From an uncultured SAR116 cluster alpha proteobacterium (GTDB lineage: Bacteria > Pseudomonadota > Alphaproteobacteria > Puniceispirillales > Marisalimonadaceae), in contig CACJQK010000001.1 of the NCBI GenBank assembly GCA_902595515.1, forward strand, positions 1 through 64,000: 64,000 nucleotides of DNA. Reading direction: 5' to 3'. Position numbers and translations under genes: made by a program. Below the pieces are notes generated by a model. That model was not told the DNA's origin. It searched no databases and was given only the letters and a program-made list of their open reading frames with translations. Below, piece after piece: positions 7,135-64,000 of this stretch. Position 1 is the first letter of the stretch, and each line of letters starts with the position of its first letter.

Positions 7135-7971
7135 TTAGGTTTTTAAAAATACTTGTTCTAATTTACCTCCCAATCTAAGAGGATTTATTGATTTACTCAA
7201 ACCAGTAGCATTTGTTTCAATTAAAACAGCACATAAAGTTGGCTCCCCAGATGATACTTCAAGTCTAGCTTTCTTATTATTTGGATGTGTAAACCTTTTT
7301 AGGGCATCATCTTTATTCATACCGATAATAGAATTATAATCGCCACTCATGCCAACATCTGTTATGTAGGCAGTCCCTTTGTCTAAAATTTGATGATCGG
7401 CAGTAGGTACGTGAGTATGTGTGCCAACCACTGCAGATACTACTCCATCAAGAGCATTAGCTATTGCCATTTTTTCAGACGAAGCTTCACCATGTACATC
7501 TACTAATGAAAAATTAACATTTTCATTAAGTTTGAGATATTTTACAATATCAGGAATTTTATCGAAGACAGGATCTGTTTTAGTCATAAATAAATTAGTC
7601 ATAATATTTGCAACCCCGAGGGATCCTGCATTTACTTTAATTACTGTCATTCCCAATCCAGGAGTTCCTTTAATCATATTTAAGGGACGAAGCAACCTAT
7701 CACTTTTAGAGATATAAGATATTATTTCTCTTTTATCCCAAATATGATTACCGGTTGTTAGGACATCAGCGCCAGCTGAAAAGAAATCATCACATATAGA
7801 AGGAGTAACGCCAAATCCACCAGCCGCGTTTTCTACATTAACAATGACAGCATCAAGTCGAAGTTGATCCTTTAATTCTACAATTTTCTTTTGAGCAAAA
7901 TTTCTTGCTTTTCTTCCTACTATATCTCCAATAAATAGTACTCTCATAAAACCTTCTTTAAATTTTATCAA
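7135..7971 (-). CDS. YmdB family metallophosphoesterase
   Basis: MRVLFIGDIVGRKAR, NVENAAGGFG, GTHTHVPTAD. Confidence 0.93.
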   Translation of the reverse strand: MIKFKEGFMRVLFIGDIVGRKARNFAQKKIVELKDQLRLDAVIVNVENAAGGFGVTPSICDDFFSAGADVLTTGNHIWDKREIISYISKSDRLLRPLNMIKGTPGLGMTVIKVNAGSLGVANIMTNLFMTKTDPVFDKIPDIVKYLKLNENVNFSLVDVHGEASSEKMAIANALDGVVSAVVGTHTHVPTADHQILDKGTAYITDVGMSGDYNSIIGMNKDDALKRFTHPNNKKARLEVSSGEPTLCAVLIETNATGLSKSINPLRLGGKLEQVFLKT

Positions 7972-8535
7972 TTAATATTAGATAACACATCTTTTTCTGT
8001 AATAATGCAGTCCAATTTTATATCATGTTTTTCTCTAGGTATCTTTTTTTCTTCTTGAATGCTATATGCAAGACCAATTGTAATAAAAAATTTCTTTTCT
8101 TTTTTAAAGTATTTTTTTAAATAATTTATTGATTTATCGTAATATCCACCTCCATAGCCTAATCTATAAAATTCTCTATCAAATGAAAGTAATGGAACTA
8201 CTAATATTTGTGGGAAAATAGATATCTGAGTTTTTTTTGGTTCCATTGTACCAAATGGACCATTTATTAATTCATCATTTGGTATCCATTTCTTAAATTC
8301 CATAGATTTATTTTTCTTATCTATTATCGGCAAAGAGAGTGTTACTCTTTTTTGTTGTAAATAATAAATGAAATCAAATGGAGAAATCTCATTATTTATT
8401 GGGAGGTATAAACCTGCAGTTTCAATTTTTTTAGTACTACGAAAAATTTTATTTAAGCAAATATGAATTGATTTTTTTAAGTTAACTTTTGCCTTAAAAT
8501 CTAATTGAAATTTTATTCTTTTTTTTTTGCGACAA
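7968..8535 (-). CDS. 5-formyltetrahydrofolate cyclo-ligase (true gene longer than the ORF track; start anomalous)
   Basis: C-terminal LGYGGGYYDKS motif in ORF 7968..8333; the same frame continues upstream as ...ETAGLYLPINNEISPFDFIYYLQQKRVTLSLPIIDKK. No canonical start in this frame before TAG at 8538-8540; a TTG at 8533-8535 lies one base out of frame across a 10-nt homopolymer. Confidence 0.85.
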
Positions 8536-8573
8536 TTCTAAGTGTATTTTTCATCTGAAGCTCTAATTTTAAG

Positions 8574-8727
8574 ATGAAAGCCAAATAGTCGTCGGATAAG
8601 TTATCCTATGTTGCCTGTTAAACAGGTGGGCACCATTTAATTTAACCAAGGCTAAAGCAGTGACGGTTCCCTAAGAATACTTATGGCCCCAAGGATTAAA
8701 GTTCCTAACAAAAAATCCAGCTTTCAT
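8574..8727 (-). ncRNA. ssrS: 6S RNA (ssrS)
   Basis: Non-coding gap between zapA and 5-FTHF cyclo-ligase, the classical ssrS position; closing helix ATGAAAGC (5', 8720-8727) with GCTTTCAT (3', about 8574-8581); GC-richer than surroundings; contains CCTTGGGGCC. Ends approximate. Confidence 0.85.
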
Positions 8728-61356: not shown

Positions 61357-62268
61357 TTAATACCAACTTACTTTTGGAGGCAAACTCATTAATACTGCTT
61401 CGGTATTTCCACCAGTTTTTAACCCAAAAATTGTGCCTCTGTCATATAATAAATTAAACTCCACATAGCGACCTCTTTTGATTAACTGAAAGTCTCTTTC
61501 TTGCTGGTTAAATGCTTTACTCGATCTGCTTTTAATAATCTTCAAATAAGAGTTTAAGAATGTTGAACCAATATCTTTTATGAAAGATAAATCTCTTTCC
61601 CAGTCTTCGTTGCAAAGATAATCAAGAAAAATTCCTCCCACACCACGAGGCTCTCCTCTGTGAGGTAAATAAAAGTATTCATCACACCAACTCTTAAATC
61701 TAGGATAATAAGATTCATCATATTTATCACATGTATTTTTTAGTTCTTGATGAAATATATTTGATGATTTTATGTCCTTGAAAGTTGGGGTAAGATCACC
61801 CCCCCCACCAAACCAAATTTTTTTTTTATTACCTTTTCCCGTTACAAGCATTCTTGTGTTCATATGGGCTGCTGGAACATGTGGATTACACATATGAGAG
61901 ACTACAGAAATACCTGATGCCCAAAATAAACCATTCTCTTCTGCTCCAGGTATTTGTTGTCTAAACTCATTAGAGAATTCACCATGCACAGTTGAGATAT
62001 TAACGCCAACCTTTTCAAAAACGTTACCGCGCATAATTGATATTAATCCTCCGCCTCCTCCATCTCTTTTCCAGTTTTTTTGATCAAAGGTTACTTTCTG
62101 TTTCTTATTTATTTTTTTATTTTCAATATCTTCAAAAGAATTACAAATTTTATCACGAAGCTCTTTAAACCACGAACTAGCTAATTCTTTTTTGTTTTGC
62201 AGTGTTTGAAAATTGTCCAAACATTTTTTTTTATGTAAATTTTTAATCATTTCATTTTTTACAGACAT
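61357..62268 (-). CDS. hemF: Oxygen-dependent coproporphyrinogen III oxidase
   Basis: RDGGGGGLISIMRGNVFEKVGVNISTVHGEF; IWFGGGGDLTP. Confidence 0.97.
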   Translation of the reverse strand: MSVKNEMIKNLHKKKCLDNFQTLQNKKELASSWFKELRDKICNSFEDIENKKINKKQKVTFDQKNWKRDGGGGGLISIMRGNVFEKVGVNISTVHGEFSNEFRQQIPGAEENGLFWASGISVVSHMCNPHVPAAHMNTRMLVTGKGNKKKIWFGGGGDLTPTFKDIKSSNIFHQELKNTCDKYDESYYPRFKSWCDEYFYLPHRGEPRGVGGIFLDYLCNEDWERDLSFIKDIGSTFLNSYLKIIKSRSSKAFNQQERDFQLIKRGRYVEFNLLYDRGTIFGLKTGGNTEAVLMSLPPKVSWY

Positions 62269-62280
62269 ATTTTTAACTTC

Positions 62281-63606
62281 TTAACTTTGTTCTAAGAAAT
62301 TTGAAATTTCTTTTGGTGAACTTTGAAAATTATTATTTACCCAAAAATCTTCGGCTTGGAAAAATAATCTTTTGACCTGATCATTTGTAATTGTTTTTTT
62401 TGATTTTACTATTTCTTCTCTAACTAATGGAAATATAGGCCACTTTATTTCAAAAAAATCAATGTCTTTTATTTTTTCAAATGGCAGAATATGTAATAAT
62501 GCAAGTTTATACCAATTAAATGGAATTCTATCTTTATTAAATAATCCTTGTTTTTTTGAATTTATACCACACCTAAGTTGCCAAATTAATTGAAAGATAT
62601 ACATTCGTTTATTTCCAACTACGTGTGACTCCAAATAATTATTTTTAATGTTAATTTTTAAATTAATTATTTGTTTAATAAAATGTAAAAACTTAATTTT
62701 TCTTTTATTTAAATCAAACCTGTTAATTATTTTATCAATACAATGATCTCCATATAAATGAACCATTATCACAGAAATTAAATCTAATTTTTCATTTTGT
62801 ACCAGAGTTATTGCATTTAATTTAATAAAATCAATTATTCCAAAATTTTTTAGTATAAATCCAGAGGATATCTCAGATCTTCTATAGTTATTTTTAGAAA
62901 TCAGAAGATATTTGTCTAAAGTTAATTTTGTCATCATTAAAAAACATTTATAACAATTCTTAGTTAATAAGATTTTATCTATCTCATCCCTAATTCTCTT
63001 GTTGGATAAATTAATGATTTTGGGAACTCTTAAAATAATTTCTTTTTTGAGATTTTCTGACATTTTGTTGTCAAAACTTCCAGAAAAACGACAAAATCTT
63101 ATAATTCTTAAATAATCTTCTTTAATTCTCTCTAAAGGGTTACCTATGAAAATAAGCTTTCTTTTAATTAGATCATTTTCTCCATTAAAAAAATCAGTTA
63201 AATTTCCTTTAGAGTCTAAATATAAGCTATTAATAGTAAAATCTCTTCTTTTGACATCATCGTTCAAACTGGCAGCAGTATCAACTAATGCAGATCTTCC
63301 ATAAGAAATTAGATCCTTTCTGAGGCTAGTTACATGATATTCTTTTTTATTAATTATAAGTGATATAGTTTTATATTTTATGTAATAGTCTTTAACAACT
63401 ATATTATTTTTACTTATTTTTTTTACGAATTTTTTTATATCTTCATTTATTACAAAATCAATGTCAGTTACTATTTCATTAGTCAGGTAATCTCTTAAAG
63501 CCCCACCAACAATCCAAATTTTAACACCAATACTCTCTGCAAGATTAAAAATAACTTCAATATTCTGATCTATTTTAAAAAAATTTATAAATTTATTTTT
63601 TATTAT
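62281..63606 (-). CDS. CCA tRNA nucleotidyltransferase / poly(A) polymerase family (true N-terminus upstream of the ORF track)
   Basis: Open frame continues upstream of 63267: IWIVGGALRDYLTNEIVTDIDFVI...SYGRSALVDTAASLNDDVKRRDFTINSLY; no ATG/GTG/TTG between the in-frame TGA (63607-63609) and the catalytic GGALRD motif. Confidence 0.88.
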   Translation of the reverse strand: MIKNKFINFFKIDQNIEVIFNLAESIGVKIWIVGGALRDYLTNEIVTDIDFVINEDIKKFVKKISKNNIVVKDYYIKYKTISLIINKKEYHVTSLRKDLISYGRSALVDTAASLNDDVKRRDFTINSLYLDSKGNLTDFFNGENDLIKRKLIFIGNPLERIKEDYLRIIRFCRFSGSFDNKMSENLKKEIILRVPKIINLSNKRIRDEIDKILLTKNCYKCFLMMTKLTLDKYLLISKNNYRRSEISSGFILKNFGIIDFIKLNAITLVQNEKLDLISVIMVHLYGDHCIDKIINRFDLNKRKIKFLHFIKQIINLKINIKNNYLESHVVGNKRMYIFQLIWQLRCGINSKKQGLFNKDRIPFNWYKLALLHILPFEKIKDIDFFEIKWPIFPLVREEIVKSKKTITNDQVKRLFFQAEDFWVNNNFQSSPKEISNFLEQS

Positions 63607-63618
63607 TCAAATTCCTCT

Positions 63619-63873
63619 TTACTTGGAAAAATTACCATCTTTAACTTTTCCATCAATTATTGAGGGTGGTTGATAAGAGTAACTTGGATCAAAAGAATCT
63701 AATTCTAAGTACGTAAAACATGATAAAACAAAAACACAAAAACCCACAATACTAACTAATGTTGAGTAAAAAATTTGATTATTTTTTGTTAGTTTGTTTA
63801 GAATATATTTTGTTAAGAAAAAAAGACCTATAGAAAATATTATTGCTAAAAGTATAATTAAATATCGTCGCAC
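63619..63873 (-). CDS. DUF6111-like small membrane protein
   Basis: RRYLIILLAII TM start and C-terminal PPSIIDGKVKDGNF; GTG at 63873 with GAGGGAG upstream preferred over the track start. Confidence 0.65.
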   Translation of the reverse strand: MRRYLIILLAIIFSIGLFFLTKYILNKLTKNNQIFYSTLVSIVGFCVFVLSCFTYLELDSFDPSYSYQPPSIIDGKVKDGNFSK

Positions 63874-64000
63874 GGCGGAAACTCCCTCAAACCTAATCCT
63901 GCAGATATAGTCACTAATATCCTTGCTGTTAACCCCCAAATATTTTTATTATTATAGTTAATTATCCATGTCATGGACATGCTTGAGTTAAGTGGAAGTT
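63858..64000 (-). CDS. NUDIX CoA pyrophosphatase, C-terminal fragment (runs off window)
   Basis: Translated ...MTWIINYNNKNIWGLTARILVTISAGLGLREFPPCDDI*, with the IWGLTARIL motif; not in the ORF track. Confidence 0.65.
   Translation of the reverse strand, partial: LPLNSSMSMTWIINYNNKNIWGLTARILVTISAGLGLREFPPCDDI

Follow-up and report, generated by a model that had tools for sequence, protein, structure and literature searches.

Where translation begins in a conserved gene that offers no ordinary start codon is the question raised by cca, a gene of the CCA-adding/poly(A)-polymerase superfamily in an uncultured SAR116 cluster alphaproteobacterium. The window, meaning the whole 64,000-nucleotide stretch of DNA that was analyzed, carries this gene on its minus strand, with the reading frame open from an in-frame TGA down to the stop at 62283-62281 (Table 1). 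No ATG, GTG or TTG lies between that TGA and the GGALRD motif, and the only start-like codons ahead of the catalytic motif are ATA ATA (63606-63601), followed by further ATA and ATT codons. The original prediction, which offered AUA/AUU initiation or a one-A frameshift as explanations, had correctly located the AGAGGA element (63618-63613), the tandem ATA codons, an A6 run (63601-63596) and an out-of-frame TTG (63610-63608).

Comparison with orthologs makes it very likely that cca starts at an AUH codon here, AUA or AUU. The specific reading that we favor, and hold with high confidence, is that a CCA/poly(A)-polymerase-superfamily gene, most likely serving CCA repair, is translated from the AUH codon at 63603-63601 (codon 2) behind an AAGG/AGAGG Shine-Dalgarno element.

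Table 1. Features of the cca locus and its neighbors in the window.
Feature	Coordinates	Strand	Remarks
CCA-adding/poly(A)-polymerase-superfamily gene (cca)	62281..63603	-	440 aa counted from codon 2; coordinates include the stop
Shine-Dalgarno-like AGAGGA	63613..63618	-	read directly; AAAGG/AGAGG/AAGG in relatives
In-frame TGA stop directly upstream of the start	63607..63609	-	read directly
Codon 1, ATA, alternative (tandem) start	63604..63606	-	not universal among orthologs
Codon 2, ATA, most likely start codon	63601..63603	-	ATA or ATT in 29/29 species
GGALRD, nucleotide-binding part of the catalytic head	63490..63507	-	motif read in translation plus PF01743 match
DIDF catalytic carboxylates	63454..63465	-	motif read in translation plus PF01743 match
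First canonical in-frame start, TTG, too late	63265..63267	-	yields a 328-aa product
Small membrane-protein-like gene, upstream neighbor	63619..63939	-	TAA at 63621-63619
Downstream gene, probably hemF	61357..62268	-	12 nt past the cca stop

The gene and its product

The full-length 441-aa reading matches PF01743 at 87.4 bits (cutoff 23) and PF12627 at 29.0 bits (cutoff 22), and with its PolyA_pol head domain and the GG..RD and DxD motifs the protein is a member of the class II CCA-adding/poly(A) polymerase superfamily. Initiation at TTG 63267 would remove about 112 residues including GGALRD...DIDF, in line with the predicted loss of about 110 residues and of the catalytic motif in the automatic call, and the PF01743 match, 87.4 bits over profile positions 1-125 for the full length, shrinks to 37.7 bits over positions 87-125. 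Gene finders would thus lose the catalytic end of cca because its start is a rare AUA/AUU codon and a normal start is lacking.

Within the superfamily, the NCBIfam model NF009814 (CCA) scores 142.7 bits against 99.1 bits for TIGR01942 (PcnB), both under their curated cut-offs (290 and 305.65, respectively), and among PDB structures the best matches, at E 1e-26, are to CCA enzymes, E. coli-type PAP reaching about 1e-14. The product is most likely a tRNA CCA-repair enzyme, as judged from these similarities, and since the best family and structure matches are CCA-adding enzymes the gene is probably not a pcnB ortholog. The parallel with E. coli pcnB drawn in the original prediction therefore stands as one of working principle and probably not of orthology. 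The query finds a single such CCA-family gene per genome in the genus. Each of the 25 tRNA genes examined carries its own CCA, and the enzyme would therefore probably serve just repair or 3'-tailing and not every tRNA, a task for which a low dosage would suffice. In the genera g13 (L096-L104, nine genomes) and g11 (L095), the CCA-family gene spans merely 241-276 aa from stop to stop, comprising head and neck without the C-terminal half, as in a reduced enzyme or a split gene.

The neighborhood comprises two genes on the same strand. The upstream small membrane-protein-like gene gave no Pfam or NCBIfam match in the profile search. The downstream gene, which we take from its sequence to be probably hemF (coproporphyrinogen oxidase), probably shares an operon with cca, and a hemF-like downstream neighbor is also seen in L006, L022 and L028.

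The start codon across the genus

Of the 40 genomes of the genus, 29 gave a cca ortholog, and the others are incomplete assemblies without a match; the genomes compared include uncultured single-cell or metagenome assemblies. All 29 orthologs keep an open frame and lack a canonical start at the start position, so that they share the absence first noticed in the window. Codon 2 is ATA or ATT in every one of these species, AUA in the window species and AUU in most relatives, which supports the predicted AUA/AUU initiation. On a tree of the rest of the protein, codon 2 shows no amino-acid change and three ATA/ATT changes, compared with 2 to 8 amino-acid changes (mean about 4.6) at each of codons 1 and 3-14. 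The distance from codon 2 to the catalytic GG is 32 codons throughout (29/29). In about half of the orthologs a stop immediately precedes codon 1, and in the others it lies 4 to 6 codons farther upstream. An ATG occurs internally, at codon 10, in six species. Since the start pattern is conserved in 29 species, a recent assembly error is rejected.

Every one of the 29 genus orthologs, and two from the sister genus, has an AGG-containing Shine-Dalgarno element whose distance is nearly constant, and these genes combine the absence of a canonical start with a conserved AUH codon behind that element. Relative to codon 2, the AAAGG register is -15 (L007, L015, L023), equal to that of infC (-15), and the codon 2 register falls within the range of ATG genes (comparison set n=183). 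In the sister genus g12, L074 reads AAAGGAACTTT TAA ATT with no canonical codon ahead of the motif, whereas an ATG or another canonical codon is available for cca in g13 and in most of f2 to f4, which are farther relatives. From this distribution, the AUH start would be older than the split between the genus (g1) and g12.

Codon 1 is ATA or ATT in 25 of the 29 species, GAGG(T) read as the Shine-Dalgarno puts it at register -15 in the window, and the sister-genus ATT aligns to it gap-free, all of which would suit a start at codon 1 (63606-63604), or at both AUH codons with codon 2 as second residue or back-up start. Where the element is AGAGGT, it suits codon 1 as well as codon 2 or better, so both codons could be used. 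Yet four species have another triplet at codon 1 (AAA in L006, AAT in L004, GTT in both L019 and L024), and codon 2 is ATA or ATT without exception, which makes initiation from codon 1 rather unlikely.

The frameshift offered in the original prediction, with the true start at the out-of-frame TTG and a one-base indel in A6 through sequencing error or programmed slippage, draws on the presence of both elements in the window and on a conserved A10 frameshift in the neighboring 5-FTHF cyclo-ligase gene. Most species, however, lack at least one of the two elements. In relatives (L008, L009, L011, L013, L015 onward) the frame stays open although the TTG is missing and the run is either A5 or interrupted, L009, L011 and L013 being examples with no TTG; L007 and L010 do have the TTG, but with an ATT codon and A5 in the same reading frame, and their TTG frame reads TTG AAT AAT TAA and so meets a stop. 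As neither element is conserved, this alternative is rejected, its probability being negligible.

Readthrough of the upstream gene's stop or stops into a fusion protein could appeal to the frame that the two genes share in most species, the window included, but two stops often separate them, a conserved Shine-Dalgarno lies between them, and the frames differ in L004, L022 and L024, which rules the fusion out for practical purposes. Equally improbable is a pseudogene, or a gene begun at the internal TTG 63267 without its catalytic head: automatic calling would give that product, but every ortholog keeps the full-length frame intact (45-90% identity; one exception is cut by a contig end), the catalytic motifs are conserved, and the internal TTG is not, the first in-frame start lying elsewhere in G017 and G009. 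At the level of sequence, the 29-species comparison thus fixes the AUH start of cca with near certainty.

The word "also" in the title of the original prediction probably points to the 5-FTHF cyclo-ligase gene (7971-8537). This gene of the window (7971-8562 with its 5' part, minus strand), which follows 6S RNA (8574-8726), begins ATG AAA AAT ACA CTT AGA ATT GTC GC-A10-GA and needs a frameshift at the A10 run (8528-8519). The same or a similar A run with a shifted frame occurs in four of the five relatives compared, while the G021 gene lacks the run and is in frame. This A10 is a candidate for conserved poly(A) slippage, and the start problem of this gene appears to have a cause other than that of cca, namely the conserved A10 frameshift.

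Other AUH starts in the lineage

The gene for IF3 provides a positive control, as infC starts with ATA in all 27 genomes of the genus, behind AAAGGAG or a close variant, and in all 13 other genomes of the order, 40/40 examined in total (L287-L299, L046-L072); the lineage therefore does initiate at AUA. A survey then compared 306 conserved ORFs, in stretches of contig C1 amounting to 300 kb, with two relatives, revealing two further genes with conserved AUH starts, dnaX and hemD, and one private case. AUH starts make up about 1% of the approximately 306 genes surveyed, and these counts are lower bounds because the filter misses genes whose first internal ATG comes soon after the AUH start.

The dnaX gene (G000 contig C1:114171-115907; L211, relatives L212-L239), located directly after 4.5S RNA, has no ATG, GTG or TTG at its N-terminus. 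Its start is ATA in 26 and ATC in three of 29 genomes, and ATT in g12; L226 has an additional ATG four codons upstream. The hemD gene (G000 contig C1:102443-103192; L182, relatives L183-L209) has ATT behind AAGGAG-N7 in 24 genomes, with TAG immediately before the ATT in three to four of them, whereas TTG is its start codon in g12 and four outgroup species. An rsmJ-like methyltransferase gene (PF04445; G000 contig C1:141804-142385) begins with ATT in the window species but with ATG in two relatives, reflecting either an AUH start private to that species or a change of recent date. From the hemD and rsmJ-like patterns, AUH starts would have been gained at different times, and they have been kept in cca and dnaX. 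As dnaX and hemD also start at AUH, cca appears to belong to a small set of AUH-started genes that includes at least three other core genes (infC, dnaX, hemD).

A peculiar initiator tRNA was considered as the cause and rejected. In this tRNA (L170 1498-1574, G000:C15), A29:U41 replaces the first of three conserved G:C pairs of the anticodon stem, but the A29 form is order-wide and includes lineages with canonical cca starts, and it therefore fails to explain genus-specific starts. IF3 looks ordinary on inspection by eye. Searching the literature for start codons in SAR116 and for a non-canonical dnaX start brought up nothing relevant.

Known systems, mechanism and meaning

Start codons of infC differ between bacteria, being AUU in E. 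coli (autoregulated), ATC in Streptomyces and AUA in S. aureus; these are third-position near-cognate starts, as is that of cca, and infC of SAR116 is itself ATA. Unlike infC, cca has no obvious feedback loop with IF3, the factor that disfavors non-canonical starts and by which infC is autoregulated (PMC5472188). E. coli has two AUU-start genes, infC and pcnB (PMC4245954, PMC9410913), the latter encoding poly(A) polymerase I, with its AUU start attributed to Binns & Masters 2002 as cited in PMC9410913 and PMC13009471. The likeness to cca is close, with the same nucleotidyltransferase superfamily, an AUH start and infC as the organism's other AUH gene, whereas the SAR116 protein is nearer to CCA-adding enzymes and AUA is used besides AUU. 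As the two belong to distant classes of bacteria, the AUH start of cca is probably a gain independent of E. coli pcnB. In S. aureus, ccpN (AUA), cvfC1 (AUU) and citZ (AUA) also have conserved AUH starts behind Shine-Dalgarno elements, and expression from AUA/AUU starts reaches about 10 to 30% of that from AUG (PMC13009471); the genes are different, and the Shine-Dalgarno is extended there and of ordinary length in SAR116. Streptomyces sigR, whose GTC start is repressed by IF3 with an experimentally shown regulatory effect (PMC5472188), resembles cca as proposed here in being a non-infC gene held low through IF3 by a non-canonical start, although GTC combines a first-position G with a third-position C and the IF3 effect is demonstrated for sigR and inferred for cca.

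By analogy with these systems, the CAU initiator tRNA would decode the AUH codon of cca with a third-position mismatch. Because IF3 would discriminate against the mismatched codon, initiation would be weak and would depend on how much IF3 is present, as it does for infC and for pcnB of E. coli. The AUH start may in this way keep the enzyme scarce, perhaps in step with IF3.

The main rival concerns the reason for the AUH codon and not the AUH start itself, and it is a serious one, falling somewhat short of even chances: the codon is used but without selection for regulation, the lineage tolerating weak starts to which cca, dnaX and hemD have drifted by neutral decay. The shift of hemD from the TTG of outgroup species and sister genus to ATT, gained at a separate time, and that of the rsmJ-like gene, ATG in relatives, to an ATT confined to the window species, are consistent with such drift. 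Against it, cca shows no return to a canonical start in 29 species though one substitution suffices, and dnaX none in 28 of 29, L226 with its upstream ATG being the exception. AUH gains at separate times in one clade offer a natural series for deciding between selected and tolerated starts.

AUH-started, probably IF3-sensitive genes are already known as a kind, and E. coli pcnB is the precedent in this gene family; the novelty lies in the lineage, in the CCA type of the family member and in the small set that also contains dnaX and hemD. Such starts are known for just a handful of bacterial genes because they are invisible to gene finders, and annotations of infC, cca, dnaX and hemD are therefore truncated or missing. 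That infC is paired with a member of the CCA/poly(A)-polymerase family, as in E. coli, suggests that RNA 3'-end nucleotidyltransferases may repeatedly come under weak, IF3-sensitive starts. More tentatively, and to our judgment on the doubtful side, a set of core genes comprising infC, cca, dnaX and hemD, and numbering perhaps 15 to 20 genome-wide, a figure extrapolated from 3-4 in 300 kb, may form an IF3-controlled dosage regulon in this SAR116 genus and its sister genus. If so, the regulon would couple the fidelity of translation initiation to tRNA repair, replication-clamp loading and haem/corrinoid synthesis.
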